Source: Acidobacteriota bacterium
GTDB taxonomy: Bacteria; Acidobacteriota; Vicinamibacteria; Vicinamibacterales; UBA2999
Direction of reading: 5' to 3'
Assembly: GCA_016210845.1 (NCBI GenBank)
Contig: JACQTK010000145.1
Location: forward strand, 1-46,853
Length of the DNA: 46,853 bases
Positions within the stretch are counted from its first letter, which is position 1. The number at the start of each line of letters is the position of its first letter. The position numbers and the translations under genes were made by a program. Of this stretch, positions 30,403 to 46,853 are shown piece after piece. The notes under the pieces were generated by a model, which was not told the DNA's origin, searched no databases, and saw only the letters and a program-made list of their open reading frames with translations.

Positions 30403-30687
30403 GTGCTTGGGAAGAAGGTCCAGATCGGAAGGCTTCCGCTGCCCAAGGATCTGACAGGGTGGTTTGCGGACGCGCTCGCACCGAACGTTCAGATCCTGCC
30501 ACTCGAAGCCGCCGTTGTCACCGAGGCGATGCGCTTGCCGGAGTTCCCCACCCGTGATCCCGCCGACGAGCTCATCGTTGCCTCCGCACGTCTTCACAAC
30601 CTCATCCTCCTCACCACCGACACCAAGCTGAGGGGCTACCGCCACGCGCGCGTCCAGTACTTCAAGCCGCTCATGGATCGGCGGTAA
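30403..30687 (+). pseudogene. C-terminal part of a VapC-type PIN-domain toxin
   Basis: About 94 codons match the second half of VapC RNases: a GRLPLP segment, then LPLEAAVVTEAMRLP, TRDPADELIVASARLHNLILLTTDTKL and a short tail. The acidic residues of the second half of the active site (E in VVTEA, D in RDPADE) are present. The N-terminal LLDTH-type strand with the first Asp is missing, and no antitoxin gene is adjacent. GTG 30403 could start a short product, but it would lack the catalytic centre. Confidence 0.65.
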
Positions 30688-30794
30688 CCCGCACTCGGGC
30701 CCCCGCGCGCTTAATTCGCAGGAAGTGGCCCGGGCCACAGTCGCGGTTTGCGGTCCCGGGCGTTTTGCGGTCAGATAGTCAGATAGATCGACGC

Positions 30795-33278
30795 ATGCAG
30801 ACCCGGATCGAGGACACCACGCTTCTGAGGGCCCCGGCCACGGTCGTCGAGCGTGTCCAGGGCGGACTCGTGGCGGTCGACCCCGCCTCGCCGCACTGGA
30901 TTGCCACCGACGACCGCGGACTGGCGATCCTGCGGCGCCTCGACGGCCGCACGCCGCTCGGCGACGTGGTCCGCGGCTACGCCGCCGAGACGGGGCTCGA
31001 CGCGAGCCGCGCGTGGCTGCACGTGGAGACCTTCGCCCGCGACGCGCTGCGGCACGGGTTCGTCTCCACCGACGGGGCCGTGCCGCTGCCGTACCTTGGC
31101 CGTGCCACCTACCTCCGCACCGACCGGCTGCGGGAGCTGTGGATTCAGGTCAACGACTTCTGCAATCTCGCGTGCGAGCACTGCCTGGTGTCGTCGAGCC
31201 CGGAGGGCGGCCAGGGGCTCGGACATGACGTGGTGCGCGACGCGATCGACCAGGCCGTCACGCTCGGCGTGGAACGCGTCTTCCTGACCGGCGGGGAGCC
31301 GTTGGCCCGCCCCGATGCCATCGATCTCATCGACCACATCGTCTCGCGGCGCGAGCGCGAGCTCGTGATCATGACGAACGGCACGCTGTTGCGAGGCGAT
31401 CGCCTCCGTGCGCTGGCGGCGCTGCCGGCCGATCGCCTGCGCGTGCAGATCAGCCTCGACGGCGCGTCGGCCGAGGTGAACGATCCCATTCGCGGCCGCG
31501 GCAGCTTCTCACGCATCGTCGACGGCGTCCGTGCCGCGGTGGGCGCCGGTCTGCGCACCACCGTGACGATGGTGCTGCTGCGAGGGAACCTGCAGGATGC
31601 GCCCGCCGTGGTGGCGCTGGCGGCCGACCTCGGCGTCACCAACGTCCACCTGCTCTGGCCTCATCGTCGGGGCAGGCTGATCACGGGTCCTCATGCCAGC
31701 CTTCCCGACGCGCGCGAGATCCTGAGTGCCGTCAGGGCCGCGCGGCAGGTGGCGCGCGAGCGCGGCGTCGCCATCGACAACGTCGAGGAGCTGCGGCTCC
31801 GGTTCGACGGTCGCCACGGCGTCAAGAACGACCTGGCCAGCGCGGGCTGGACGAGCCTGTGCCTGCATGCCGACGGCGCGATTTATCCGTCGGCGTCGAT
31901 GACCGGTGTGGCCGAGCTGCGGTGCGGCAGCGTCCTCGAGCAGCCGCTCGAGCGCATCTGGAAGGAAAGCGCGGTGCTGCGGGAGCTGCGCGGCGCCACC
32001 GTGGAGCGGAAGGTCCACTGCCGCACGTGCCATCTGAAGTTCCTGTGCGGCGGCGGCGACGTCGAGCACGGCTATTGGGCGTCGGGCGGCCCCACGGGCC
32101 GCGGCAGTTTCGTCGCGCACGACCCGTACTGCGAGCTGTACAAGGGCCTGGCGGCCGACGCCTTCGCCGACCTCGTCGACCAGGGGCGCGCGACGGTGCA
32201 GCCGCGATCCGGATTCGACCGTCCGATCGTCCTTCGGGCGATGGGCGAGCGGACCCTTCACGACGAGGAGACGCTCGTCCGCACCACGCACTCGGCATGC
32301 GTGCTGTCGGAGGAAGTGGCGGACCGGTCGCGTGCCGCCGTGCGGGAGTTCTACGGTCATGCCGCGGAGCAACCGCAGGCCGAGCTGTGCTGTCCCGTGC
32401 GGCCGGATGCCGAAGACCTCGCGCACATCCCCCCGGAGGTCGTGGAACGGTTCTATGGGTGCGGCAGCCCCGTATCGGCTGCTGCACCCCAGGCGGGTGA
32501 AACGCTGGTCGACCTGGGATCCGGCGCGGGGATTGATTGCTTCATCGCGTCGCGCCGCGTCGGCCGCGACGGCCGTGTGTGCGGCGTCGACATGACCGAC
32601 CAGATGCTGGCGGTCGCGCGCGAGTGTCAGCCCACGGTGGCCGCGGCGCTCGGTTACGACAACGTCGAGTTCCGCCGTGGCCTGCTCGAGCGCGTTCCGC
32701 TGGACGATGGCGTGGCGGATATCGTGACGTCGAACTGTGTGATCAACCTCTCACCGGACAAGCCGGCGGTGTTCCGCGAGATCTGGCGCGTGCTGAAGGA
32801 CCACGGGCGTCTCGTCATCGCCGACATCGTGTCCGACACCGAGGTGCCGCCCGCGCTGCGCGCCGACGGCCAGCTCTGGGGCGAATGCATCAGCGGCGCG
32901 CTCTCGGAGGACGGGTTGTTCTCGGCTTTGGAGCGCGCGGGCTTCTATGGGGTGACGCTCCTGAAGAAGAGCGTCTGGCGGGAGGTACAGGGGACACGCT
33001 TCTACTCGGTGACCGTGCGCGGGTTCAAGTTCGAGAAGAAGGCGGGCTGCCGGTACGTGGGCCAGTGGGCCACGTACCTCGGACCGATGAAGGCAGCCGT
33101 CGACGAAGAGGGGCACTTCTTCCCGCGCGGTGTGCCCGTCGAGGTGTGCACCGACACGGCCGCCAAGCTGCGCGCGGCGCCGTACGCGGGAAATTTCGCA
33201 GTCGTCGACGGTCCCGACTCGGAGATGACCGTTACCGCAGGCGACGGCTGCTGCGGCCCTGGCGGCACGTGCTGCTGA
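30795..33278 (+). CDS. PqqD-like / radical SAM-SPASM / ArsM-like methyltransferase fusion
   Basis: The 827-residue enzyme has three modules. Residues 1-105 form a PqqD-like domain. Residues about 115-470 are a radical SAM enzyme with C123-x3-C127-x2-C130 and GGEPL, followed by a Cys-rich SPASM-like region (CRTCHLKFLCGGGD, DPYCELYK). Residues about 500-827 are a SAM methyltransferase of the ArsM type: CC at 532-533, LVDLGSGAGIDCF, SNCVINLSPDK (C648), WGECISGAL (C698) and a C-terminal CCGPGGTCC. C648 and C698 are 50 apart, the spacing I recall for the arsenic-binding cysteines of algal ArsM. A metalloid or peptide substrate is inferred. ATG 30795 was chosen; the frame is open from 30765 without a better start. 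Confidence 0.85.
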   Translation: MQTRIEDTTLLRAPATVVERVQGGLVAVDPASPHWIATDDRGLAILRRLDGRTPLGDVVRGYAAETGLDASRAWLHVETFARDALRHGFVSTDGAVPLPYLGRATYLRTDRLRELWIQVNDFCNLACEHCLVSSSPEGGQGLGHDVVRDAIDQAVTLGVERVFLTGGEPLARPDAIDLIDHIVSRRERELVIMTNGTLLRGDRLRALAALPADRLRVQISLDGASAEVNDPIRGRGSFSRIVDGVRAAVGAGLRTTVTMVLLRGNLQDAPAVVALAADLGVTNVHLLWPHRRGRLITGPHASLPDAREILSAVRAARQVARERGVAIDNVEELRLRFDGRHGVKNDLASAGWTSLCLHADGAIYPSASMTGVAELRCGSVLEQPLERIWKESAVLRELRGATVERKVHCRTCHLKFLCGGGDVEHGYWASGGPTGRGSFVAHDPYCELYKGLAADAFADLVDQGRATVQPRSGFDRPIVLRAMGERTLHDEETLVRTTHSACVLSEEVADRSRAAVREFYGHAAEQPQAELCCPVRPDAEDLAHIPPEVVERFYGCGSPVSAAAPQAGETLVDLGSGAGIDCFIASRRVGRDGRVCGVDMTDQMLAVARECQPTVAAALGYDNVEFRRGLLERVPLDDGVADIVTSNCVINLSPDKPAVFREIWRVLKDHGRLVIADIVSDTEVPPALRADGQLWGECISGALSEDGLFSALERAGFYGVTLLKKSVWREVQGTRFYSVTVRGFKFEKKAGCRYVGQWATYLGPMKAAVDEEGHFFPRGVPVEVCTDTAAKLRAAPYAGNFAVVDGPDSEMTVTAGDGCCGPGGTCC

Positions 33279-34198: not shown

Positions 34199-35542
34199 TC
34201 ACACCATATACGCGATGTCGGAGGCGCGCGTCGGGTAGGCGAAGATCGTCTGCTTCAATTCGCCGGCCGTCATACCGCTGCACATGGCCACCGAGAAGAC
34301 ATTGACGAGCTCGTCGCTGTTCGGCCCGAGCAGATGCGCGCCCAGAATACGGCCGCTGCCTTCCTCCACCAGCACCTTGTGGGCCGACCACCGCTCGCCC
34401 AGCCGCCGTGACGAGAACCACGCATCGGTCCGGGCGAAGTGTGTCTCGAAGCGGAGGCCTTTGTCGCGGGCGTCAGCTTCCTGCAGACCCACGTAGGCGA
34501 GCGGCGGCAGCGTGAACACCACGCTGGGGATGGCCGGATACTCGACGGCCTGCCTGTTGCCGTCCAGCAGGTTGGCCGCGACGATGCGCCCCTCGAAGCC
34601 GGCGACGGGCGTGAGCATCGGTCCGCTGTCGGCCGCGTCGCCCGCGGCGTAGACGGCGGGGTTCGAGACGCTTTGCAGATACTGGTTCACCTTGATGCCC
34701 CGCGTGGTGCGTTCGACGCCGCCCTTCTCCAGATCCAGGTCGTCGATCTCGGGCACGCGTCCGGCCCCGTGCACCACCATGTCCGCGTCGAAGGTGCGGC
34801 GGCCCTGTGGACCGTCGGCGCTCACGACGAGACGATCCGCGACGCGTTCCACGCCCTGCACTTTCGTCTGAAGGTGCAGCTCGATGCCCAGTTCCCTCGT
34901 GCCCTCCACGAGCACCGACACCAGATCGGGATCGAACCCTGCCAGCGGGCGATCGAGCATCTCGATCATCGTCACCTGCGCGCCCGCGATGGCGCACACA
35001 TGGGCGAACTCGAACGAGATGAAGCCGCTGCCCAGGAACACGATCCGGCGCGGCAGCTCCTCCAGCTCGAGGAACCGATCGCTCGTCGTGAGCAGCTCCT
35101 CGCCTGGAATCCGCAGCCTGACGGGCATGGCGCCGGTCGCGATGTGAATGTGGCGCCCCTCGATCACCCGGCCGTCCACGCCAATCGACTGCCGGTCGAC
35201 GAAGCGGGCGCGGCCGTGCAGCGTGTCGATGCCCGCCTTGGCAAGGCCCTTCTCCGACCGCTCCGCGACCGGATCCGTGAACGTGCGTTCGAACCTGACG
35301 AGATCCGCCCAGCGCAGGGCGGCGCCGTCCGCGCCAACGCCCCTGCCTGCCAGCCGCCGGGCCGCGTGGATCGCGTCGGCCGCGCCGACCAGCACTTTCT
35401 TCGGATCGCACCCCCGCTGCGCGCACGTCCCGCCGTACGGCCTGGAGTCGACGATGGCCACCTTCCATCCGGCGGAACGGCACTTCCGCGCGACGCCAGA
35501 GCCGGCAGAGCCGGTGCCAATAACGATGAGATCGAATGTCAT
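34199..35542 (-). CDS. FAD-dependent pyridine nucleotide-disulfide oxidoreductase
   Basis: The 447-residue flavoenzyme belongs to the glutathione/mercuric reductase and lipoamide dehydrogenase superfamily. It has the FAD-binding GTGSAGSG, the redox pair C40/C45 (GGTCAQRGC), the NAD(P)-binding GSGFISFEFAHV and the second FAD motif VYAAGDAAD. The C-terminal HPTxxE that supplies the catalytic His-Glu is replaced by YPTRASD, so a classical disulfide substrate is less certain. ATG 35542 starts right at the Rossmann strand and has AGGAG upstream; ATG 35551 is possible. It follows the EgtB-like gene by about 100 bp on the same strand. Confidence 0.88.
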   Translation of the reverse strand: MTFDLIVIGTGSAGSGVARKCRSAGWKVAIVDSRPYGGTCAQRGCDPKKVLVGAADAIHAARRLAGRGVGADGAALRWADLVRFERTFTDPVAERSEKGLAKAGIDTLHGRARFVDRQSIGVDGRVIEGRHIHIATGAMPVRLRIPGEELLTTSDRFLELEELPRRIVFLGSGFISFEFAHVCAIAGAQVTMIEMLDRPLAGFDPDLVSVLVEGTRELGIELHLQTKVQGVERVADRLVVSADGPQGRRTFDADMVVHGAGRVPEIDDLDLEKGGVERTTRGIKVNQYLQSVSNPAVYAAGDAADSGPMLTPVAGFEGRIVAANLLDGNRQAVEYPAIPSVVFTLPPLAYVGLQEADARDKGLRFETHFARTDAWFSSRRLGERWSAHKVLVEEGSGRILGAHLLGPNSDELVNVFSVAMCSGMTAGELKQTIFAYPTRASDIAYMV

Positions 35543-35642: not shown

Positions 35643-36929
35643 TCATCGCGCTGCCGTACGGAAACCGGCGACGATATTGCGCCGGTGGCGCTTGTAGAAG
35701 TTCCGGAACGTCGTCCGGATCAGGCGTGACCGCGTCATCCAGCCGCCGCCTCGCAGCACTTTCTTCTCGCCGAAGTACGGCTGCGAATACTCCGCGTAGG
35801 GATCGCAGGCGAACCCGGGATAGGGGTGGAAGGTGTCCTCGACCCACTCCCAGACGTTGCCGATCATCTGGCGGCAGCCAACCGGGCTGTCGCCCTCCGG
35901 CAGCGCGCGCACGTCGATGGTGGCGCCCGCGCGAAAATCCAGACTGGCGCGTTCGGGGCTGGGCGCTTCGTCGCCCCAGGGAAAGCGGCGCTTGCGTCCC
36001 GTCGTGAAGTCGTACGTGGCGGCCATCTCCCACTCCGCCTCGGTGGGGAGCCGCCGCCCCGCCCACCGGCAGAAGGCGTCGGCTTCGTACCAGTTCACGT
36101 GAACGACCGGATGCCACGGCTCCAGGGGCAGCACCGCATCGAACTGTCGGGTGTGCCAGCGCCCCGCGCCATCGCGGATCCAGAACAGCGGGTGCCCGGC
36201 CCCTTCGCGCCGCCGCCAGTCCCATCCGCGGCGACTCCAGCACTCGCGACGATGGTAGCCTCCGTCATCGACGAAGGCCCGGAATTCCGCGTTCGTGACG
36301 GGAGCGGCCGAGAGGCGAAAGGGTTTCACCTCGATGGGATGCGCCCACTTCTCGTTGTCGAAGACGAACGGCTCGCGAGGATCGGCGCCCAGCCGGAACA
36401 TGCCGCCGGGGACGTGCACGTCGTACGGGCGGTGCGCGACGTCCACCTCCGGGGCGCCCCACACCGGATCGAACCGGCTCAACCCTGGCCGGCGATAGCC
36501 ATGTGTCTGGACGATCGTCGTCAAGGTCTCGGTGTGCATGTCCTCGTGGCACGCAGCCAGGGTGTAGAAGTAGGCTTCCTCGGCGGAAGGCGTTCGCGAA
36601 TCGAGCCGCGCCATGCATCGCCGCAGGACCTCGGCGATGTAGGCCAGCGTCCCCTCACGGGATGGAAACGCATGATCCCAGCGCCGCTTGTACGAGACAT
36701 GGAAGGCATCGTAGATGCCGTCGGAGCCCGGGAGAAGCGATTCGGCTCCGTCCAGGCCTCGCAGGATCCAGTACTCCTGGAACCATCCGACGTGGCCGAC
36801 CTCCCAGATAGGGGGCTCGACGAAGTGGCCGCGGCGGCCGAGCAGCTGGTCATCGGTCAGCCCCTCCAGCAGCTCGAGCTCGACAGAGCGCGCGTCGAGC
36901 AGCGCATCGATCAGAAGACCCGTTGTCAT
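35643..36929 (-). CDS. EgtB-like sulfoxide synthase (DinB plus FGE-sulfatase domains)
   Basis: The 428-residue protein has an N-terminal DinB-like helical domain and a C-terminal FGE-sulfatase domain ([49 protein letters not shown]). The iron ligands of EgtB are present as H46 (GHVGWF), H128 and H132 (HEDMH). In ergothioneine synthesis EgtB joins a thiol to trimethylhistidine with O2. No EgtD, EgtC or EgtE gene is in the window, so the substrate could be ergothioneine, ovothiol or selenoneine type (the SenA homologue is also an EgtB relative). ATG 36929 has a perfect GGAGG eight bases upstream. Confidence 0.85.
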
Positions 36930-36979
36930 CGTTCGATCCTCCATCATTATCATCAAGCTCGTCGCCTGGGGCTGGGCAC

Positions 36980-37009
36980 TTGACTTTCCACTCGGGTGGA
37001 CAGCCTACA

Positions 37010-37011
<2 letters not shown>
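36980..37011 (+). promoter_or_regulatory. MerR-type promoter in front of the decayed metal operon
   Basis: TTGACT (36980-36985) is followed by a 19-base spacer holding the dyad TTCCACTCGGGTGGA and then CTACACT as minus 10. The long spacer with a central dyad is diagnostic of MerR-family promoters. It is almost identical to the promoters at 46072-46102 and 46107-46137. Confidence 0.75.
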
Positions 37012-37807
<796 letters not shown>

Positions 37808-37811
<4 letters not shown>

Positions 37812-37926
37812 CGAGCGCCTGGACCGTGCGCCTCGCGAGTCTCGCGTTCGTCGGCGCAATCGTGACGGCCGGCGATGTCGCGGGACAGCGGCCACGGGGC
37901 ATCACGATTTCGGTCCCGGGCATTCG
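37808..37926 (+). pseudogene. Fragment of a secreted HMA-like protein
   Basis: The GTG at 37808 overlaps the preceding stop as GTGA, just as the intact gene overlaps the intact ATPase gene. The codons read LASLAFVGAIVTAGDVAGQ, then [10 protein letters not shown], matching the signal peptide and first strand of 41971-42279. Similarity ends where the CMYG motif should be. Confidence 0.75.
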
Positions 37927-37939
37927 CTGGCCGGTGCCG

Positions 37940-38177
37940 GCCACGCCCGGCAGCCGACCTGCCCGTCACATGGGGCTCGCGTGGAGGGCCGGACGGGGCC
38001 GGACTCCTCTACGTCACCGACGCGGACAACGGCGTCGTGGAGCGGTACGGCACCGACGGCACGCTGGAGTCGCGGTGGAGCGGATTCACGCGGCCCGTGG
38101 CCGTGGCGCCCACCGATGGCCTCGTCTACGTCGGTGACTTCTATGACACAGGGATTCGCCGGGTGCAATGCGAGTAG
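37940..38177 (+). pseudogene. Fragment of an NHL-repeat protein
   Basis: In a different frame, LLYVTDADNGVVERYGTDG and GLVYVGDFYDTGIRRVQCE match the NHL blades and C-terminus of the protein at 41447-41974 (there TVYASDFYETDIRQLRCDS). The N-terminal membrane anchor and middle blades are missing. It is the last piece of the decayed operon. Confidence 0.7.
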
Positions 38178-38199: not shown

Positions 38200-38697
38200 C
38201 TACGTCGGGCGTGTGGGGCGATGGCCGAGGACCTGCGTTGCGAGGCGAATGGTGTCCGCCGTGTGGCTCGGCTCATGCTCTTCGATGAGACCGCACACGC
38301 AGCCGTCGCGCGGCCCGGCCACGACTGCCTGGGCCCGAAGCGCCGCGAGCTCGTTCCTGAAATCCCCGAGAGCCCGGATGTGCTCATCCAGTTGTCGCAG
38401 CTTGTCCTCGACGACGCGGAGAACATGCGCACACGGCGTCACACCCTGCCGCCGCAGCGCGAGGACATCGCGGATTTCCTGGAGCGACAGCCCGACCGTC
38501 TTGGCTTTGAGGATGAAACGGAGGCGATCGCGGTCCGCCGGACCGTAGACGCGGTAGCCGGCCGACGTGCGCCCGGAGGCGGCCAGCAGGCCGATGCGCT
38601 CGTAGTACCGGATCGTGCGAGGGTTGAGACCGAACTCCGCCGCCAGTTCGCCCACGTGTGCCGCGGAGCGGGTTACTCGCGATGGGGATTTCGCCAT
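38200..38697 (-). CDS. MerR-family heavy-metal-responsive regulator
   Basis: The 165-residue protein has a MerR winged helix (VGELAAEFGLNPRTIRYYERIGLL, then AGYRVYGPADRDRLRFI) and a dimerisation helix. Possible metal ligands are C89 (GVTPCAHV), C133 and C135 (DGCVCGLIEEHE). The cysteine expected 35 residues after C89 is absent, so specificity may differ from MerR itself, perhaps Zn, Cd or Cu type. ATG 38697 was chosen; an upstream TTG at 38718 would add seven residues. It is downstream of the HMA selenoprotein on the same strand and convergent with the decayed operon. Confidence 0.88.
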   Translation of the reverse strand: MAKSPSRVTRSAAHVGELAAEFGLNPRTIRYYERIGLLAASGRTSAGYRVYGPADRDRLRFILKAKTVGLSLQEIRDVLALRRQGVTPCAHVLRVVEDKLRQLDEHIRALGDFRNELAALRAQAVVAGPRDGCVCGLIEEHEPSHTADTIRLATQVLGHRPTRPT

Positions 38698-38714
38698 GGC
38701 ATCAGGATAACGCC

Positions 38715-38810
38715 TCAATGCTGGTGCTGGATGAGCGCCGCCGTCCAGGCGGGAAACGCGCGGAGGAGGATCGCCACCAGCACGCCCGCCGACTCACTCG
38801 TTGGCGACAT
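38715..38810 (-). CDS. Possible 31-residue membrane peptide with HQH end
   Basis: An ATG at 38810 opens a 31-codon frame overlapping the end of the HMA selenoprotein gene by 17 bp. It consists of a polar start, one hydrophobic helix (AGVLVAILLRAFPAWTAALI) and the C-terminus QHQH. Third positions are G/C-rich. The ribosome site is weak (AAGG three bases before the ATG). It may be a genuine small membrane peptide of the metal operon, the tail of a lost membrane protein, or chance. Confidence 0.3.
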   Translation of the reverse strand: MSPTSESAGVLVAILLRAFPAWTAALIQHQH

Positions 38811-39144
38811 GGGCCTTGAAGCCGATTTCCTGCACCGCCTCGACGAGAGCATCCGCGCTGACGAGCCCGGGGCGGTACCTGACGACGGCCTGCGGGGGCT
38901 GGAACGACACCTCCGCGGCGGTGACGCCGTCGACATCCAACAGGGCCTGGCGCACGGCCAGGGGACACCCGCCTCAGGTCATTCCCTGGACCGCCAGCGT
39001 GACCGTGTCGGTCTCGCCGGGCACGTCATGGCTGGCCGGGGCGCCTGGGCGCGCGGCGTTTGAACCGCACCCGCCAAGGGCAAGCGCAGCCGCGATGGCG
39101 AGCGCCACAAGTGCGGGCCTCCTTTCGATCCACATCGCCTTCAT
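38794..39144 (-). CDS. MerP/HMA-like metal-binding lipoprotein, candidate selenoprotein (U57)
   Basis: The frame codes 116 residues if the TGA at 38974-38976 is read as selenocysteine. A signal peptide ends in a lipobox (LALGGC). The HMA domain follows: TLAVQGMT-U57-GGC60-PLAVRQAL, then VDGVTAAEVSFQPPQAVVRY, AVQEIGFKAHV and stop. The first Cys of the metal-binding CxxC is exactly the position of the TGA. In-frame homology continues for 60 residues beyond it. A perfect hairpin with G and U in its loop sits 11-28 bases after the TGA. The ATG overlaps the merR stop (ATGA), so metal-controlled expression is likely. It probably captures soft ions in the periplasm. A one-base or point-mutation pseudogene is the alternative. 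Confidence 0.82.
38946..38962 (-). promoter_or_regulatory. Candidate bacterial SECIS hairpin of the HMA selenoprotein
   Basis: Reading the mRNA, the stem CCTGGC and GCCAGG closes the loop CGTGC. The loop starts 18 bases after the TGA and has G and U at its tip. This fits the known rules for bacterial SECIS elements (loop about 16-37 bases after UGA, G among the first two loop bases). Confidence 0.7.
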
Positions 39145-39596
39145 CTCTCTTTCGTCGTGAGCGTCTCGATGACCGGGCACTCCGGTTCCGGGCGCGACCG
39201 CGGCGGGCGTCCGTCCGCCAGCGTACGTTCGCACCCTTCGAGGAAGCCCGACAGCGTGGCGCGAAACGCCTCGAGCTCCGTCATTCTGGCGTGGAGCTCG
39301 TCGAGCTTCGCGCGCAGCAGGTCGCGCACCTGACGGCAGCGGGTCAGGCCGCCACGGTCCTGATAGGTCACCAGGTCGCGAATCTCCTGCAACGTGAGGC
39401 CGAGCGCCTGCGCCTGCTTGATGAAGCGCAGCCGCTCGAGCGCTGCCGACGTGTAGCGGCGGAAGCCGCCGCTCGTACGTGGCGCCTGCGGCAGCAGGCG
39501 CAGGCGCTCGTAGTACCGCACCGTGTCCGGCGTCACGCCGCTTCGGGCCGCGACCTCGCCAATCTGATACGTCTCGTCCGCTGCTGACGACCGCAT
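39141..39596 (-). CDS. MerR-family regulator with mercury-type cysteine spacing
   Basis: The 151-residue protein has the MerR DNA-binding domain (YQIGEVAARSGVTPDTVRYYE, GGFRRYTSAALERLRFI) and a long dimerisation helix. Its cysteines are C87 (LTRCRQV), C122 (LEGCERT) and C140 (EPECPVIE). The 35-residue spacing of C87 and C122 equals C82/C117 of Tn501 MerR and the PbrR pair. The third Cys is 18 rather than 9 residues further. AGAGGT precedes the ATG. It lies between the CopZ remnant and the HMA selenoprotein gene in one unit, with a MerR-type promoter at 39831-39861 that it probably controls. Confidence 0.92.
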   Translation of the reverse strand: MRSSAADETYQIGEVAARSGVTPDTVRYYERLRLLPQAPRTSGGFRRYTSAALERLRFIKQAQALGLTLQEIRDLVTYQDRGGLTRCRQVRDLLRAKLDELHARMTELEAFRATLSGFLEGCERTLADGRPPRSRPEPECPVIETLTTKER

Positions 39597-39601
39597 GGTG
39601 C

Positions 39602-39823
39602 TTACCTCTTGGCCTGCGAGAGCGGCACGTTCGAAGCAAAACCGTAGGCCACCATTGTCCGCGCGCGCTTGACCGCTGCGGCGATGTCGCCCAGGCAGCA
39701 TACGCCACGGGGAGCCGTGAGGAGATCGACCGCCTGTCCCGTCGTCGCGCTCACGGGGCACACGCCGACGCGGCAGGAGACCGATCCAGGTGCCGAACAG
39801 CGCGACGATCCGCCGGCGTCCAC
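39602..39823 (-). pseudogene. CopZ-like copper chaperone with internal deletion
   Basis: The 73-codon frame keeps the two ends of the CopZ (zinc-finger plus [2Fe-2S] BFD-like) family. The N-terminal CSAPGSVSCRVGVCPVSATTGQAVDLLTA is split between CSAPG and the CPVS-x3-G motif, and the C-terminal part is PRGVCCLGDIAAAVKRA. The roughly 100-residue middle with the remaining cysteines is missing and the join is in frame. It might still make a small Cys-rich peptide. The GTG at 39823 lies about where transcription from the MerR-type promoter should begin, so the message would be leaderless. Confidence 0.6.
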
Positions 39824-39830
39824 GAGGGGA

Positions 39831-39861
39831 GTATCCGCCCTGGAGTGCGCTCCAGAGTCAA
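39831..39861 (-). promoter_or_regulatory. ZntR/MerR-type promoter for the merR-HMA operon
   Basis: On the minus strand TTGACT (39856-39861) is followed by the dyad CTGGAG-CGCA-CTCCAG (39840-39855). GGATAC (39831-39836) then acts as minus 10, giving a 19-base spacer. The dyad strongly resembles the one I remember from the E. coli zntA promoter. It differs from the operator of the ATPase operon, so the two MerR proteins may each have their own site. Confidence 0.75.
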
Positions 39862-40083
39862 GCGTTTTGTCGGACGCCTCAGATGTCGGACCGCTTCCGG
39901 CGACCCGCGCCGCGCCGCAGCCATTCGCGGGGCGTGAGCGTGGGGACGGAGACCTTGCCGGCGAAATGCTTCGCAGTCCGCAGCAGTCATCGATGACGAA
40001 CAGGGCCCTTCCCCCAGATGGTCCGCAGCAGTCCCCGGCCCATGCCGTAGCTGCCATACGTCCGAGCTCTTCCAGGACCTGCG

Positions 40084-41124
40084 CTACCCCAGGGGCTTGA
40101 GCGCCACGGTCCATGAGAGCGGCACCCGCTGCGGCGGATCGCAGACCTCCGGGGTGCATGCCTGATACTCGAGCACCCCTTGGAGTGACATCGTCGCACC
40201 AGGCTTCTGCGCGAGCTGTCGCGTCTCGTTGTTGACGACAACAGCGACGTCCTGGATAAGCCGGAACGGCTGTGCGTACGCCGGCAGGCGCTCGTTCCCC
40301 GGCGCCTGGAACTCGGCGCTCGGCGGGTGGCTCAGGGGATAGATTCTCAGGTTCCCCGTCGATTCCAGGTCGAGGGCGACGACGCGATAGCGATGCTGGC
40401 CGGGAGCGATGACACGCATGCCGGGCCCGGGCGTGATGTCGAGCACAATCGAGAAGCGGTGGCCGGGCGCCACGGTCTCATCCGTGAGAAACGCCGCGAT
40501 CTCCGCTTGCGGCGTGGCGCGGCGGATGGGGTTCCCCATGCCCGACACGGGCTGCCCGATCTTCAACGCGATGCTCGCCGCGGTATTGCGATACTGGTAC
40601 TCCTCCTCGAAGTACCGCGCGAGGACACGGCCCTCACGGTTCAGGATGAACGTGCCAGGGTGCGGGATCCCATAGTTCTGATGGCCCGGCGCATACTGGC
40701 GGTTGAGGATCCCGTACCGTTCGACGATGCTGTGGTCCGCGTCCGAGAGAATCGGGAACTCGATCGCTCGCTCGTCGGCGAATCTCCTGATCGTCGCCGG
40801 AGGGTCGTACGTCACCGAGGCGATCCCCAGGCCCAGCTTCTGCAGCTCCCCGTACCGTGCTTGCAGCTCCACGAGCTGCGCTTTGCAGAACGGTCACCAG
40901 TCGGCCGAACGGTTGAAGAAGAGCATGGCTCCGTTCGGCCCCATGACCGACTGGAGCGACTGGGTGCGGCCGAACTGGTCGACAGCCGAGAAGTCGGGCA
41001 CGATCTCGCCGACCTGCGGTCCGATCCGCTCGACGTCGACCGGCTGCGCCGGCGGCGGCGCCTGAGCCGCCGTGCTCATCGTGATCGCCGCGGCCAGGAG
41101 CACTCCAAAGGCAGCACGTGTCAT
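40084..41124 (-). CDS. Secreted thioredoxin-like plus DsbD-alpha-like protein, candidate selenoprotein (U77)
   Basis: The frame codes 346 residues if the TGA at 40894-40896 is selenocysteine. A signal peptide (to about AAQA) is followed by a redoxin domain: GEIVPDFSAVDQFGR, MLFFNRSADW-U77-PFC80-KAQLVELQ, SVTYDPPATIRRFA and HPGTFILNREGRVLARYF. The TGA takes the place of the nucleophilic Cys of the CxxC site. The C-terminal 140 residues resemble the DsbD alpha domain, including its Cys pair (EYQACTPEVCDPPQRVPLSW). A perfect 7-bp hairpin follows the TGA. GGGGGGAG precedes the ATG. It probably passes electrons from the CcdA-like protein to oxidised envelope thiols. A nonsense mutation is the alternative. 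Confidence 0.85.
40863..40879 (-). promoter_or_regulatory. Candidate bacterial SECIS hairpin of the redoxin selenoprotein
   Basis: Reading the mRNA, GCAGCTC and GAGCTGC form a perfect 7-bp stem around the triloop GTG. The loop lies 22-24 bases after the TGA. G is first and U second in the loop, as in known bacterial SECIS elements. Confidence 0.75.
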
Positions 41125-41446
41125 ACGCTCCCCCCCCTTGACGGTGTTCGACGGTCTTCTCCTGCTTCGATCCTCACCGCTCGGCTTCGAGACTGTCCGC
41201 CGACCGGAGGACCTCCTCACGTGATATTAAACGCGCCGGGCGCGGTTTTTATTCCGCCGCCCGTAGAGAACAGTGCCTGGTTGTCGTACTCACGGTGCAG
41301 GCGCGCCGGCGTGGTTGCCCGTCGCCGAACATGACTCACGGTCACGGAGCATGCCCCTCGCGACGCAGGTGCGTGGCCGCCGTCCCGCGCGACCGACATA
41401 ACGTCATCGGCACCTGCGCCCAGATGACGCGAGGGGCGCCTCCGCG
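41125..41446. other. Intergenic region with an interrupted dyad
   Basis: No gene was recognised. GCCCCTCGCG (41353-41362) pairs with CGCGAGGGGC (41428-41437), and GCAGGTG (41365-41371) pairs with CACCTGC (41411-41417). A large interrupted hairpin could therefore form just after the NHL gene and end its operon. Nearer the redoxin gene, GGAGGTCCTCC and an AT-rich TTTAATATCAC (minus strand, about 41218-41230) may belong to a promoter. Confidence 0.45.
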
Positions 41447-41974
41447 TCACGAGTCGCAGCGTAGCTGTCGGATGTCCGTCTCATAGAAATCGCTGGCGTA
41501 GACGGTGCCATCGTCGGCGACCGCTATTCCCGCGGCATACCGAAGCGCTGGATCCTCGGGATCCCAGAGCGCCAGCAGCTGGCCGTTCGATGTGAACATC
41601 TGGATGCGACCGTTGAACGCATCGGCGACAAAGATGGAGCCGGCGGCGTCCACGGCCACCTCCTTGGCGAGGCGAAACCATCCCGGCCATCCGCCGCCAA
41701 CTCCGAACCCGATGCCGCCCCATTGCCGGAGGTATTCGCCGTCGGGCGTAAAGACCTGCACGCGATGATTGAACGCGTCGGCGACCACCACCTCACCCTG
41801 TACGCTGATCGCGAGGCCGGTCGGGTACTGAAAGCGCCCGCTGGTGCGCCCCTGGTCGCCCCATTCGAGCAGGAACCGCCCGTCTCGATCGAACTTCTGG
41901 ATCCGGTAGGCCGTCGCGTAGATCAGGACGAGGACGGCGATGGTGCGAATAGCCGCCGTGTACAGTCTCTTCAC
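41447..41974 (-). CDS. Membrane-anchored NHL-repeat protein
   Basis: The 175-residue protein starts with a single membrane helix (AAIRTIAVLVLIYATAY) and continues with NHL blades, each of the form DRDGRFLLEWG or TPDGEYLRQWG followed by GLAISVQGEVVVADAFNHRVQVF. The C-terminus is DIRQLRCDS. The GTG start overlaps the stop of the HMA-like gene (GTGA). It is the last gene of the metal operon. NHL propellers mediate binding, and its partner may be the HMA protein or the ATPase. The same gene order survives in the decayed copy. Confidence 0.82.
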   Translation of the reverse strand: MKRLYTAAIRTIAVLVLIYATAYRIQKFDRDGRFLLEWGDQGRTSGRFQYPTGLAISVQGEVVVADAFNHRVQVFTPDGEYLRQWGGIGFGVGGGWPGWFRLAKEVAVDAAGSIFVADAFNGRIQMFTSNGQLLALWDPEDPALRYAAGIAVADDGTVYASDFYETDIRQLRCDS

Positions 41975-42279
41975 AGCGAGATCGAGTACGTGTACGGATA
42001 TTCCGCCCGATCGATGGCACCGTCGAGCTGCTGGCGCGCCAGCGACGCTCCGGGCCTGACGGTGATTCGGATCTCCTCGGCATCCCACCGCAGGTCGATC
42101 CGCTCGATCTCCGGGATCTCGGCGAGCCGTTTTTCGATGCCGTACATGCAATAGGGCCCTGGAATCCCGGGGACGGAAATGGTGATGCCTTGTTGTCGCT
42201 GGCTCGCGAGATCGCCGGCCGTCACGATCGCCAACCCACCGGCGAGCGCGAGAGTGGCGAGCCGTGTGGCCGACCTCAT
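41971..42279 (-). CDS. Secreted HMA-like protein with a single cysteine
   Basis: The 102-residue protein has a signal peptide (to about DLASQ) and one ferredoxin-like HMA fold: [33 protein letters not shown], which I split here at CMYG, then [11 protein letters not shown]. The metal loop has only one Cys (PYCMYG) where MerP has CxxC. It may receive an ion from the ATPase or act with another thiol or selenol protein. The ATG overlaps the ATPase stop by 4 bp (ATGA). Confidence 0.8.
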
Positions 42280-44855
42280 ACTGTCCCCGGCTCGTGTCCC
42301 GTCTCGTGCACGGCCTGCACGCGGAAGCCGAGCGCGGTCACGGCCGATTCGATCTCGTGAATCCCGATCCGGTCCGGCCGGTACGCCACTCGCACCTTGT
42401 GCTCGCCGGCACTCGCCCTCACATCGTCAATCCCGTCGCGCGTACCAAGCCGCCGCTCGATCGTCTGCTCGCAGCCGGCGCAGTGGACATCGGGGACGTC
42501 CAGCAGCACGTGCGCCGGCGCGCTGGGCGGCCTGTGCTCCATCGCCCGCACGTCCACGCGCGCCTCGGCTGGCGACACCTCCTCGCGCCTGGCGTCCCGA
42601 TCGGCCACGTGCGCCGGCGACGGTCTGCCGGGCAGCAGCCGGCCGCCGAAGCTGTTGAGCAGCACGGCGCTCACGCTGGCGGCCATCGCCACCATGGCCC
42701 ACACGGGGTGCACGAGACCGGTGGCCGCCAGCGGAACGCCCACGGCGTTGAACGAGAAGGCGAAGACGAGGTTCTGCACCGTCTTCGCGTAGCTCTTTCT
42801 GCCGATGTGATACGCGTCCACGACCGCCGAGAGCCGCTCGCCGATGAGGATGACGTCGCTCGACTCGATCGCGATGTCCGTTCCGGCCCCGATGGCGATG
42901 CCGACGTCCGCCTGCATCAGTGCCGGAGCGTCGTTGATGCCGTCGCCCACGAACGCCACTCGTATGTTGCCGTGCTGCAACTCGCGCACGCGGTCGGCTT
43001 TCCGGTCCGGAAGCACGCGGGAACGGACGTCCTCGATGCCGACATCCCCTGCGATGGCTCGGGCGGTCGCCTCGGCGTCGCCCGTGACCATCACGACCTG
43101 CATCCCGAGCGCCCTGAGCTCGGCGATGGCCTGCTTCGCGTCGGCCTTCACGGTATCGGCGATCGAGAGCGTCCCCGCCACCTCACCGCCAACCGCGACG
43201 AGTACGGCCGTGCGGCCCCGCGCCTCCTCGCGCGCGAGCACGCGACCGGCATCCGCCACTGGCACGCCGCGGTCGGCCAGGAGCCTCGGCGTACCGATGA
43301 CGATGCGGCGTCCGCGGACGAGGGCCTCGACGCCGCCGCCCGCAATCGCCTGGAAGTGTTCCGCCTCGCTCAGCGTCACCTCCTCTTCTTCGGCGCGCGT
43401 GACAACGGCACGGGCCAGTGGGTGCTCCGAGGGCGACTCCGCGCTGGCCGCATCGCGCAGCACGTCCTCCCGCGAATATCCCGGCGTGGGAACGACCTCG
43501 ACGACGCGCGGCTTGCCTTCCGTGATCGTGCCGGTCTTGTCGAGGACGATGATCCGGATGTCCTTCAGGACCTGGAACGCCTCGCCGGAGCGCATCAGGA
43601 CGCCGCGCTCCGCCGCCATGCCGCCGCCTCGGATGAGCGCGAGCGGCGTCGCCATCCCGAGCGCGCACGGATAGCCCATCACGAGCACCGTGACCGCCGC
43701 ATAGATCGCACGCTGGTACACCGGCCCGGCGCCAAACAGGAGCGGCGCGATCACCCAGAACAAGTACGCGCCCAGCGAGATCGTGAGCACCACGGGCACG
43801 TAGTACTTGAGCACGCGATCCACCAGGACGATGATCCCCGGCTTGAGCGCCTTGGCCTCCTCCACGTGCCGCGCGACCTGACGGAGGAAGCTCTCGTCCC
43901 CCACGCGGGTGACCCGCACCAGGAGCGTGCCGGTCTGGTTCACGCTGCCGCCGATCACCTCGTCGCCCACCTGCTTCTCCGCAGGGATCGGCTCACCGGT
44001 CACCAACGCCTGGTCGACGGCGCTCCCGCCGTCCACGATCCGGCCATCGACCGGGATCCGCTCGCCTGGCCGGATCCGCACGTCGTCGCCGATCCTGACC
44101 TCGTCGATCGGGATCTCCTCCTCGCGGCCGTCACGGACCACCCGGGCCGTCGGCGGCTGCATCTCGAGCAGCCTGCGGACGCTCTGCGACGCGCGCGTCC
44201 GCACCTTCAGCGACACGAAGCCGGACAGCAGGTGATAGGTCGTCAGGAAGACCACGACCCCGAAGAAGTCGACGGCCGGGAACCCGTAGGCGCCGTTCCA
44301 GCCGGTGAACGGAATCGGCGAGCCGAGGAGCCCGCCGCCATAGCCCGCGAGCGCACCGGCCGTGAGCAGGACGTGCTGGTTCGTGATCCCGCGCCGCGCC
44401 GCGCCCCACGCCATGCGGAGGATGTGCCGGCCGGTCCAGAAGAAGACAAACGTGGCCGCGGCCCACGCGATCCAGATCTGCCAGTTCTCGATGACGAGCC
44501 GATCCAGCCACATCGCCGCCATGGCGGACACCATCCCGACGGCGAACCCGGCCGCGACCAGCAGGTTGTTGCGCTCGCGGCGCATCATCGCCTCCTGCTC
44601 CTCGAAGCTCTGCACCTTCCGCGGGTCGCGCACCGTGTAGCCCAGGCCGCGCAGCGTGTCCTCGATCTGCGTGTCCGTCACCTGGTCCGGGTGATACCGG
44701 ACGAGGGCTTCCTCATGCGCCAGCGAGACGTGCACGTCGTCGACGCCCTTCTGCCGGCCGATGGCCTTCCGAATCGAGTTCGCGCAGAAGGAACAGCTCA
44801 TGCCGCCAACCTTCATCTGAAGGGTGGCGGTGCCGGATGCCGCCGGCGGGTTCAC
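42276..44855 (-). CDS. P1B-type metal-transporting ATPase with YPC motif
   Basis: The 859-residue transporter has an N-terminal HMA domain (C21/C24 in GGMSCSFC), eight membrane helices, the A-domain VTGEP, and the P-domain D439 ([11 protein letters not shown]). HP ([10 protein letters not shown]) and GDGINDAP are also present. A second HMA domain at the C-terminus has CAGC ([14 protein letters not shown]). The membrane metal motif is Y395-P396-C397 ([12 protein letters not shown]) instead of CPC, so Cu(I) specificity cannot be assumed. The GTG overlaps the preceding gene (GTGA) with GGAGG upstream. It should pump a soft or transition metal ion from the cytoplasm. A decayed paralogue lies at 37010-37811. 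Confidence 0.92.
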
Positions 44856-45388
44856 CGCTCGCCTCCGCCCGGCCAGGTGAGGAACGGCATGTTCACCACG
44901 GCGCCGGGTCGCTCGATCGTCGCCTCGCCAGCCGCCTCAGCCTGCCGAACCTCGGATGCGGACGTCAGCAGGCGCGCCCGTGCTGGATCCTTCCACGTGA
45001 CGATGTGCACGGTACGGAGGGGGCTGTAGGCGGGAGTGTCGGGTGGCGCGTCGAAGACATCCGGCTGATAGCCGAACGGCCCCCTGTTGCCGCGCGGCTG
45101 AACGCCGTTGGCGAACACATAGACCGTCGCCCGCACCGCATCGGGCGTCTCCGCCAACGCGGGGACGACGAGGACCGGGGAGCGCATCATCGTGGTCAGC
45201 AGCTCCGCCACCTTCGGGTCCGAGGCCTCGGTGTGGATGAACAGGATCCGTTCGCTGTCCGCGTACCCGGCGACGGAGGGAATCACGGGGCCTCCGGCGT
45301 CCATCGCGGCCGGGCGCTCCCGGAAATCGCATGCGGCGAAGGCAATGGCCGATGCCGCCAGCGTGATCAGTATGCCTGCTGCCTTCAT
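44852..45388 (-). CDS. DUF7482-like lipoprotein
   Basis: The 178-residue protein has a lipobox signal peptide (IAFAAC). The rest resembles a DUF7482-type domain from memory: [71 protein letters not shown] and the terminal [10 protein letters not shown]. Function is unknown, and the family is sometimes found beside copper or redox genes. It starts 5 bp after the CcdA-like gene and overlaps the ATPase gene, so it is an integral member of the metal operon. The aromatic and histidine residues could bind metal, but no clear site is visible. Confidence 0.75.
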
Positions 45389-45393
45389 GCGTC

Positions 45394-46062
45394 TCACACT
45401 CCTGCTTGCAATCCACCGCGAAGTCCGCCGATGCCCAGCGCGACGGACCACGCCCCCAGAACGATGAGCACGATGCCAGTCCAGAGAGGCGCACGATCGG
45501 AGAGCTGCGCCATGCGGTCCAGCGCCGCGCGCGCCCTCGTCCAGGAGACGGCCGCGATGAGCGGGAGCGACAGGGCGATGCCGAAGATCGCCATCATCCA
45601 GAAGCCTTGCACGATGGTCGCCGTCCCAACGCTGGCGGCGAAGATCGCTGCCAGCAGCGGCGCGGCACATGCGGGGATGTTCAGGCCGAACACCAGGCCC
45701 AGCACGGCGGCCCTCCCGGTCGTGCGGGTCCGGGCCACACTCGGGCCGACTGCGTGCATCAGGCGCCAGTGCCGGCCCGCGATATAGATGCCGCCCAACA
45801 CCACGTAGGCGGAGCCGAGCAGGATCCAGAACCACTGCTGTACCCCAATCAACGCAGCGCCAAAGAGGGCGGCAATCGCTCCCAACGACCCGATGAACAA
45901 CGCCCGTGTCACGGCAAACACGGCCGTCTCGACGATCGTGACCGCCGCCTCCTTGCCCTCGAGGTACTTCACGAAGAGGAGGCTCGAGCCAACCGTGCAC
46001 GGCTCGATGAAGCCCAGCAGTCCGAGGCCGAGCGGCAGAGTCACCAGCAGCCACAGGTCCAT
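45394..46062 (-). CDS. CcdA/DsbD-like membrane thiol-disulfide transporter
   Basis: The 222-residue protein has six membrane helices and the paired motifs of the CcdA family: IEPCTVGSSLLFV in the first helix and NIPACAAPLLAA in the fourth. These cysteines carry reducing equivalents from cytoplasmic thioredoxin to the periplasm. It is the first gene of the metal operon. The likely acceptor is the redoxin selenoprotein at 40084-41124, whose C-terminal domain resembles the DsbD alpha domain. The ATG is only about 3 bases after the transcription start expected from the MerR-type promoter. Confidence 0.87.
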   Translation of the reverse strand: MDLWLLVTLPLGLGLLGFIEPCTVGSSLLFVKYLEGKEAAVTIVETAVFAVTRALFIGSLGAIAALFGAALIGVQQWFWILLGSAYVVLGGIYIAGRHWRLMHAVGPSVARTRTTGRAAVLGLVFGLNIPACAAPLLAAIFAASVGTATIVQGFWMMAIFGIALSLPLIAAVSWTRARAALDRMAQLSDRAPLWTGIVLIVLGAWSVALGIGGLRGGLQAGV

Positions 46063-46071
46063 CTCTGCTCA

Positions 46072-46102
46072 TCGTAGGCCTTCCACCCGAGTGGAAGGTC
46101 AA
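46072..46102 (-). promoter_or_regulatory. MerR-type promoter of the metal operon
   Basis: On the minus strand TTGACC (46097-46102) is followed by a 19-base spacer with the dyad CCTTCCACTCGGGTGGAAGG and then CTACGA (46072-46077). This is the signature of a MerR-activated promoter driving the CcdA-like gene. Confidence 0.82.
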
Positions 46103-46106
46103 GCCC

Positions 46107-46137
46107 TTGACCTTCCACTCGGGTGGCAGGTGCATGC
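46107..46137 (+). promoter_or_regulatory. Divergent MerR-type promoter
   Basis: TTGACC (46107-46112), a 19-base spacer beginning TTCCACTCGGGTGG, and GCATGC (46132-46137) drive the gene that starts at 46146. Only four bases separate it from the opposing promoter, and the two operators together form a long inverted repeat (46080-46120). Confidence 0.78.
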
Positions 46138-46145
46138 TGGGCGTG

Positions 46146-46853
46146 ATGAGCATCAGGGCATGTGCGTTCGTCATGACGGCCATCCTTGTGTGGGCCTCGG
46201 GTCGCGCTGACGCCGGTCCGGTGACGTTTCTCACCGCCCTGCCGGTCGCGACGTCGCAGGCCGTCGTCCGCGGGCAGTACTTCCTCTTCCGCGCGACCGG
46301 CGACCCGACGCCGGCGGCGCGGGACCTCACGGTCCACGCGGTGCCCCTGGCCGTCGCCGTCGGCGCGACGCCGCGGCTCGCGCTCTTTGGCGTCGTGCCG
46401 ATCGTCAACAAATCGATGAAGCTGAGTACTCCGATCGGCCGCGTCACCCGCGATACGACCGGGCTTGGCGACATCGTCGCGTTTGCCCGGTACACGGTCT
46501 ATGCGGTCGACACGGAGGAATCAACGTTCCGAATCGCGCCCTTTGGCGGCCTCGAGATGCCGACCGGTGACAGCGACGAGTCGGACGCTTTTGGCCTGTT
46601 GCCCAGACCGCTCCAGCCGGGCTCGGGATCGTGGGACGGCCTCGGCGGCCTGGCCGTCACGTATCAGACGAAGCAGTGGGAGCTCGATGCCGATGCGGGG
46701 ATCAAGAAAAACACCGAAGCGGACGGCTTCCGGTTCGGCGATGAGTTCTTTGCGGACCTCTCGTTACAGTATCGCGTGTGGCCGAGGCAGCTCGGCGCCG
46801 GCATACCGGCCTTTCTGTTCGCGGTCGTGGAGACAAACGTCGTCTCGCAGGGC
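46146..46853 (+). CDS. Outer-membrane beta-barrel protein, MetA-like, 3' end outside window
   Basis: The open frame runs off the window after 236 codons. A signal peptide (about 1-24, ending near GRADA) is followed by alternating strands with many aromatic and Gly residues: LFGVVPIV, GDIVAFARYTVYA, IAPFGGLEMPTGDSDE, GGLAVTYQTKQWELDADAGI and ADLSLQYRV. This is typical of the MetA-pathway (phenol degradation) outer-membrane family often found with metal efflux genes. It shares a divergent MerR-type control region with the metal operon. ATG 46134 is in frame but overlaps the minus 10, so 46146 was chosen. Confidence 0.75.
   Translation, partial: MSIRACAFVMTAILVWASGRADAGPVTFLTALPVATSQAVVRGQYFLFRATGDPTPAARDLTVHAVPLAVAVGATPRLALFGVVPIVNKSMKLSTPIGRVTRDTTGLGDIVAFARYTVYAVDTEESTFRIAPFGGLEMPTGDSDESDAFGLLPRPLQPGSGSWDGLGGLAVTYQTKQWELDADAGIKKNTEADGFRFGDEFFADLSLQYRVWPRQLGAGIPAFLFAVVETNVVSQG

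Follow-up and report, generated by a model that had tools for sequence, protein, structure and literature searches.

Bacterial mercury resistance is usually described as import of the ion by MerT and MerP, followed by its reduction by MerA. A link between soft metals and selenium is offered by the Sao families of Haft and Gwadz (2023), which are reportedly selenoproteins of organometal systems. In published lists, the Sao families (PMC13188914) stand alongside a selenocysteine (Sec)-containing MerP, a putative mercuric transport protein, a P-type ATPase, NF041115, and UxxC redoxins (PMC13188914, PMC2398784). Here, we analyzed a metal-related region at positions 38,200 to 46,853 of a contig from an Acidobacteriota bacterium of the order Vicinamibacterales (assembly GCA_016210845.1, contig JACQTK010000145.1); the whole 46,853-nucleotide stretch is referred to as the window. 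An original prediction had described this region as a single MerR-controlled envelope defense using selenols. Our analysis instead favors, as the probable reading, a composite mercury/soft-divalent-metal island of three independently inherited units: a CcdA-P1B metal module (Unit 1), a MerR-B/HMA selenoprotein unit (Unit 2), and a redoxin selenoprotein (Unit 3). This reading rests on the composition of the region, its selenocysteine insertion sequence (SECIS) signals, the conservation of each unit, and mercury-type operators in other genomes.

Composition of the island and linkage of its units

All families named in the original prediction were found in the region (Table 1), namely, two MerR regulators, a P1B ATPase, HMA proteins, a CcdA-like protein, a DUF7482 protein, an NHL protein, an outer-membrane barrel, and two genes with an in-frame UGA. 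The composition is real, the single selenol-based system drawn from it is wrong, and the widespread module that lies under mercury operators in many genomes had not been foreseen. Gene overlaps had been taken as a sign of one function; they do exist (GTGA at 44852-44855, ATGA at 42276-42279 and 39141-39144), but they bind genes only inside units, joining CcdA-DUF7482-P1B-HMA-NHL in one set and MerR-B with the HMA selenoprotein in another. The redoxin gene stands isolated, 322 bp from the NHL gene and 487 bp from MerR-B. Operators shared across the region were not confirmed: the dyad of MerR-B and the HMA selenoprotein is of a different, ZntR-like kind, and the search revealed neither an operator nor a MerR-type promoter in front of the redoxin gene.

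The proposal of one function joining the module to both selenoproteins did not withstand a co-occurrence check in relatives. A redoxin homologue was present in none of 80 module loci, module genes were absent around the redoxin orthologues (8 loci) and the HMA selenoprotein orthologues (11 loci), and nothing tied the redoxin to metal in its 8 neighborhoods. An integrated envelope system, in which the HMA and redoxin selenols would cooperate with CcdA and the P1B pump for soft-metal capture and thiol repair under common MerR control, would suit genes that span 8.7 kb on one strand except for the barrel, the MerR-type promoters of the region, and a CcdA from which the redoxin could receive electrons through its DsbD_N-type domain. 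Weighed against these neighborhoods, the missing MerR-type promoter before the redoxin gene, and the deletion of merT, such a system appears quite improbable.

Table 1. Features of the island, grouped by unit, with positions in the window
Feature	Position	Strand	Support or detail
Unit 1
Back-to-back MerR-type promoter pair with two operators	46079..46130	both	CcdA operon (-), barrel (+)
Outer-membrane barrel, Phenol_MetA_deg type, start uncertain, cut by contig end	46107..46853	+	PF13557 57 bits
CcdA-like membrane protein, membrane Cys in EPC and PAC	45394..46062	-	relatives in alignment
DUF7482 lipoprotein	44852..45388	-	PF24298 83.3 bits, cut-off 27.5
P1B-type ATPase, HMA domain at each end, membrane metal site YPC not CPC	42276..44855	-	TIGR01525 552 bits, cut-off 346
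Small exported HMA-like protein, GPYCMYG	41971..42279	-	60% identity to syntenic L096 gene
NHL beta-propeller protein, shortened, start uncertain	41447..about 42010	-	PF01436 62.7 bits
Other features
MerR-A, divalent-type MerR regulator	38200..38697	-	46% identical to regulator beside syntenic Gemmatimonadota module (L096)
Decayed inverted second module copy	36980..38177	+	operator relic, CcdA, P1B, HMA, NHL pieces
Unit 2
ZntR-like MerR-type promoter of MerR-B/HMA selenoprotein	39830..39861	-	TTGACT, dyad CTGGAGCGCACTCCAG, GATACT, spacer 20
MerR-B, with three Hg-ligand Cys of Bacillus MerR	39141..39596	-	best PDB match 4ua1, 84.6 bits
HMA selenoprotein, MerP-like lipoprotein, Sec57 in GMTUGGC	38794..39144	-	PF00403 47 bits
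UGA (38974-38976) and SECIS hairpin CCTGGC-CGTGC-GCCAGG	38946..38976	-	12 sequences
merT relic, last ~25 codons only	38715..38798	-	12/22 residues identical to MerT-like C-terminus, 0 of 20,000 shuffles
Unit 3
Redoxin selenoprotein, Sec77 in SADWUPFC, peroxiredoxin fold and putative C-terminal DsbD_N-type domain	40084..41124	-	PF00578 94 bits
UGA (40894-40896) and SECIS hairpin GCAGCTC-GTG-GAGCTGC	40863..40896	-	23 sequences

The metal module in other genomes

Scanning with the CcdA alignment revealed 222 related places in genome_contigs, of which the best 80 were retained; counts of module neighbors at these loci are lower bounds because many contigs end inside the module. The module recurs in Gemmatimonadota, Proteobacteria, Desulfobacterota, and Calditrichota. 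A P1B ATPase lies near CcdA in 66 of the 80 loci (58 on the same strand and within 3.5 kb downstream), merA is present in 31, and merA or merT in 34. Other neighbors include a 507-amino-acid protein to which no function was assigned (16 loci), a multicopper oxidase (10), DUF7482 (7), NHL (6), and the barrel (5). A Gemmatimonadota metagenome-assembled genome (L096) is colinear with the window module, showing identities of 67% for CcdA, 69% for DUF7482, 77% for the P1B ATPase, 60% for the HMA-like protein, and 62% for NHL, with a MerR-A homologue (46%) upstream. DUF7482 homologues within equivalent modules elsewhere are 50-69% identical, and a barrel homologue adjoins the module in L083, L096, L116, L128, L152, and L166. 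Furthermore, the module core is carried by plasmids of Leisingera, Thalassobaculum, and Marinobacter, where it sits beside mer genes; in Marinobacter salarius, CcdA-P1B-HMA-barrel lies close to merA/P/T. No relatives were found on viral contigs. The order to which the window belongs yielded no close relative of CcdA outside the source genome, and the module was therefore probably acquired by that genome.

Operators were examined in the 76 loci that offered 900 bp of sequence ahead of CcdA, using equal-sized downstream stretches as controls. The dyad CCGTAC-N4-GTACGG, which we take to be the mercury MerR operator of Tn501/Tn21, was found with at most one mismatch upstream of CcdA in 41 of 76 loci, against 0 of 59 controls and 0.1 upon shuffling, and it accompanies 37 of the 54 loci having a P1B gene downstream. 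Many of these mercury-operator operons start with a MerR fused to a C-terminal HMA domain. Such fusions lie upstream of CcdA at L082:7270-7941, L083:2254-2925, and many further module loci, and one of them had the mercury MerR model as its best match (124 bits, cut-off 150.85).

The ATPases of the module also share a distinctive metal site, as 55 of 58 carry YPC while 7 of 8 other P1B matches of the same loci carry CPC. The window enzyme, whose site was placed by alignment with Archaeoglobus fulgidus CopA, has YPC where P1B-1 copper ATPases have CPC in membrane helix 6, and this YPC is invariant in the P1B alignment (A2). The CcdA-like protein scores 20.6 bits with PF02683 (CcdA/DsbD_TM), under the gathering score of 27.1; its C22 and C132, one per membrane segment, are invariant in the CcdA alignment (A1). 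The small HMA-like protein matched no Pfam family, the AlphaFold model of the DUF7482 protein was poor and unfit for structure search, and the window NHL protein corresponds to the C-terminal half of a 309-amino-acid protein in L096.

In the window, the CcdA operon is preceded by TTGACC-N20-TACGAT on the minus strand, from 46102, and the barrel by TTGACC-N20-CATGCT on the plus strand, from 46107. Both share two CTTCC-N8-GG[AC]AG dyads (CTTCCACTCGGGTGG[AC]AG), CCTTCCACCCGAGTGGAAGG without mismatch and CCTTCCACTCGGGTGGCAGG with one; matches to this pattern number 3 in the window versus 0.18 expected by chance. The inverted second copy of the module displays 79.6% DNA identity over 598 bp, along with shorter colinear pieces. 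This copy retains the NHL part missing from the main copy.

A MerP-like selenoprotein beside a regulator with Hg-ligand Cys

In MerR-B, the three Hg-ligand Cys all align with those of the mercury MerR 4ua1, and the protein scores 105.1 bits with TIGR02051, under the curated cut-off of 150.85. The adjoining HMA selenoprotein was assigned to neither MerP (TIGR02052, 62.9 bits, cut-off 92.55) nor NF041115 (84.7 bits, cut-off 95) because it falls under both curated cut-offs, and its motif is UxxC, not UxxU. Eleven orthologues carry the UGA, and a lipobox marks the protein as a lipoprotein. The hairpin after the UGA is 98.6% paired across the window gene and its 11 orthologues, with 2 pairs changed on both sides; this pairing and covariation were matched by 0 of 500 shuffles, and the covariation also went beyond that of slides. 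A MerT-like gene directly follows the HMA selenoprotein in 9 of 10 testable orthologues, the eleventh being cut by a contig end and left out of the count. These MerT-like genes (LLAASCCLLPLALI...RLFPSWTA) score 24-36 bits with MerT models, below their cut-offs. On sequence grounds, Unit 2 is therefore read as what is left of a merR-merP(Sec)-merT unit after the loss of most of merT.

A comparable, independent case was found in a betaproteobacterial mer operon (L116), in which the MerP gene at 17130-17421 has an in-frame UGA (GMTUASC), a hairpin after it, and merA next, in a genome with a tRNA-Sec of 76 bits. The MerT linkage, the Hg ligands of MerR-B, and the L116 case suggest that the HMA selenoprotein works in the manner of MerP. 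Metal capture by a selenol, as originally predicted, is plausible for the HMA protein, but the joint selenol function proposed for both selenoproteins is unsupported.

A genome scan with the HMA selenoprotein as sole query gave no match. Its matches within the 80 module loci were rejected as candidates, being HMA domains of the Cys type, in many cases fusions with MerR, and not selenoproteins, with the L116 MerP as the sole exception. Separately, a short remnant (CPVSATTGQAVDLLT) lies upstream of MerR-B at 39602-39830 (minus strand); it presumably derives from an iron-sulfur metallochaperone, which it resembles.

A redoxin selenoprotein not linked to metal genes

Relatives of the redoxin with one in-frame UGA are spread over dozens of genomes across the order, and the source genome has a second copy, 79% identical. 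When the window gene is compared with 22 orthologues that have the UGA, codons +6 to +10 after it (CAG CTC GTG GAG CTG) agree in 114 of 115 cases, while all five permit synonymous change and adjacent codons vary. An orthologue with Cys at the UGA position (L033) does not have the hairpin sequence. The structural model has a predicted local distance difference test (pLDDT) value of 86, and its first half matches Bcp/AhpE-type peroxiredoxins. Assignment of the C-terminal half rests on sequence families because the VIA-align rows mostly spanned the peroxiredoxin half. Two orthologues matched DsbD_N (PF11412, gathering score 25) with 40.6 and 34.0 bits, the window copy gave no match, and the second half of the redoxin contains a YQAC-x4-C stretch resembling the DsbD of the source genome. 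Moreover, DsbD adjoins both the second redoxin copy of the source genome and the redoxin of another genome (G047). These observations suggest that the redoxin is a UxxC enzyme of the periplasm that receives its electrons from DsbD-like carriers. At G109:C15, G094:C143, and G112:C80, a redoxin selenoprotein paralogue with UGA shares its contig with selA and selB, only a few kb away.

The source genome encodes a tRNA-Sec (68 bits). Conservation was used to assess the SECIS elements because single-sequence folds after the two UGAs were not significant alone (z of -1.1 and 0.2); no Rfam RNA family was matched in the window. With a conserved hairpin or conserved synonymous sites after the UGA in orthologues of both, the two candidate selenoproteins are genuine on comparative evidence.

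Metal specificity and points against the composite reading

That the region belongs to a MerR-controlled soft-metal defense, as the original prediction held, is supported by the Hg-MerR operators and mer genes seen with the conserved module across many genomes, by the Hg-ligand Cys of MerR-B, and by the MerT-like partners of the HMA selenoprotein. Operators elsewhere, the YPC site, and an early Cys of MerR-A and MerR-B that aligns with its counterpart in CadR and MerR, both divalent sensors, make mercury or another soft divalent metal our first choice, with copper, silver, or gold as the main rival.

Several observations weigh against the composite reading. The window has no good CCGTAC-N4-GTACGG site, so its operators are not of the Hg-MerR type. 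The dyad of L096 is similar to that upstream of CcdA in the window, and both dyads resemble what we take to be CueR-type sites (TTGACCTTCC...GGAAGG in the window). The source genome has no MerA above cut-off, and its 93% complete draft yielded neither selA nor selB; SelA/SelB occur in 26-27 of 40 relatives, often mutually adjacent, and the lack of a single locus in the draft might account for both. Finally, MerT and part of the NHL gene have been lost, and Unit 2, perhaps also Unit 1, may therefore be decaying.

The CueR-like dyads would be expected if the module handled copper, silver, or gold through a CopA-like pump and a CueR-type switch. The ATPase also exceeds the cut-off of the copper subfamily (TIGR01511, 462 bits, cut-off 397), and multicopper oxidases are among the neighbors counted above. 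However, YPC loses one of the two Cu-ligand Cys, the early Cys of both regulators matches that of divalent sensors, and Hg-MerR operators dominate in other genomes. We thus consider copper-type handling rather unlikely. An operator search with a strict CueR-like pattern upstream of CcdA gave no match in the 80 loci.

Gene loss could also mean that the island in its entirety has become a decaying relic that does little in its host, as merT is cut to ~25 codons, the NHL gene is shortened, and both the inverted module copy and, by inspection, the metallochaperone-like remnant are decayed. Yet CcdA, DUF7482, the P1B ATPase, the HMA-like protein, both MerR genes, and both Sec frames are intact, as are promoters and hairpins, making such a relic an unlikely explanation.

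Proposed mechanism

According to the composite reading, Unit 1 would be a mobile export module switched on by a MerR regulator, which would drive CcdA, the YPC P1B ATPase, DUF7482, the HMA-like protein, NHL, and the barrel. Metal, of which Hg(II) or a similar soft cation is the most likely candidate, would be moved by the ATPase into the periplasm, from where the HMA-like protein and the barrel may carry it further outward, while CcdA would supply electrons that keep periplasmic thiols reduced. Unit 2 would be a worn merR-merP-merT unit whose MerP-like lipoprotein has Sec in its metal site. Unit 3 would be a separate envelope selenoprotein whose UxxC peroxiredoxin-like domain receives electrons through a DsbD_N-type part of the same protein; it may serve general thiol redox and may have been placed here by chance or loose selection.

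Beyond the source genome, we tentatively propose that the module might represent a widespread mobile mercury-export route under Hg-MerR control, in which the YPC P1B ATPase exports Hg(II) and the CcdA-type carrier keeps periplasmic partners reduced, beside or instead of MerT/MerP-MerA. If true, an operon with mercury operators, a P-type ATPase with an altered site, and an electron carrier would extend mercury resistance by an export branch, carried by at least four phyla and by plasmids.

Genes flanking the island

The metal island is adjoined by senA, encoding a selenoneine synthase (35646-36938, minus strand; NF041186 447 bits, cut-off 420). Next to it lies a glutathione-reductase/MerA-like flavoprotein disulfide reductase (34214-35536, minus strand; PRK06116 308 bits; MerA 285, below cut-off). 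A single frame at 30558-33275 (plus strand) combines a radical SAM part with an arsenite methyltransferase (ArsM-like) part and a C-terminal CCGPGGTCC.

Comparison with known systems

The original prediction had named no described system with the composition of the region. Sec-MerP and UxxC redoxins already figure on published selenoprotein lists; a literature search conducted mostly without subscription journals turned up no publication that describes the CcdA-YPC-P1B module with its mercury operators or the YPC ATPase.

The island shares with the Sao selenoproteins of organometal systems the idea of selenols in soft-metal handling, but the families differ, and no Sao family was matched in an NCBIfam scan of the proteins tested. 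The redoxin resembles the Prx-like UxxC and redoxin selenoproteins of Zhang and Gladyshev in its peroxiredoxin fold, UxxC motif, and SECIS. Unlike these, it is fused to a putative DsbD_N-type domain with C-x4-C and has many members in one order; its clean SECIS signal and unusual fusion to a likely electron donor domain make it of interest in its own right.

Like the NF041115 UxxU (seleno)protein and the NF045683 MerT/CopZ selenoprotein, the HMA selenoprotein has Sec in the metal site and a tie to MerT, but it carries UxxC, falls below the NF041115 cut-off, and has MerT and HMA as separate genes. The ATPase agrees with CopA and other P1B ATPases in architecture, HMA domains, and scores above the heavy-metal and copper subfamily cut-offs. 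It differs from them in its YPC site, in a second HMA domain at the C-terminus, in an operon shared with CcdA and DUF7482, and in the mercury operators of most relatives.

Compared with the mer operon and Sec-MerP, the window cluster has no merA, its MerP-like protein is a lipoprotein, and its merT is a relic. The resemblance nevertheless extends to the Hg ligands of MerR-B, the Sec of the MerP-like protein in a GMTCxxC site, the MerT-like gene downstream in relatives, and the Hg-MerR operators on the P1B module elsewhere. The Sec-MerP/MerT pairs allow a direct test of whether the strong selenium-mercury bond is used in capture.

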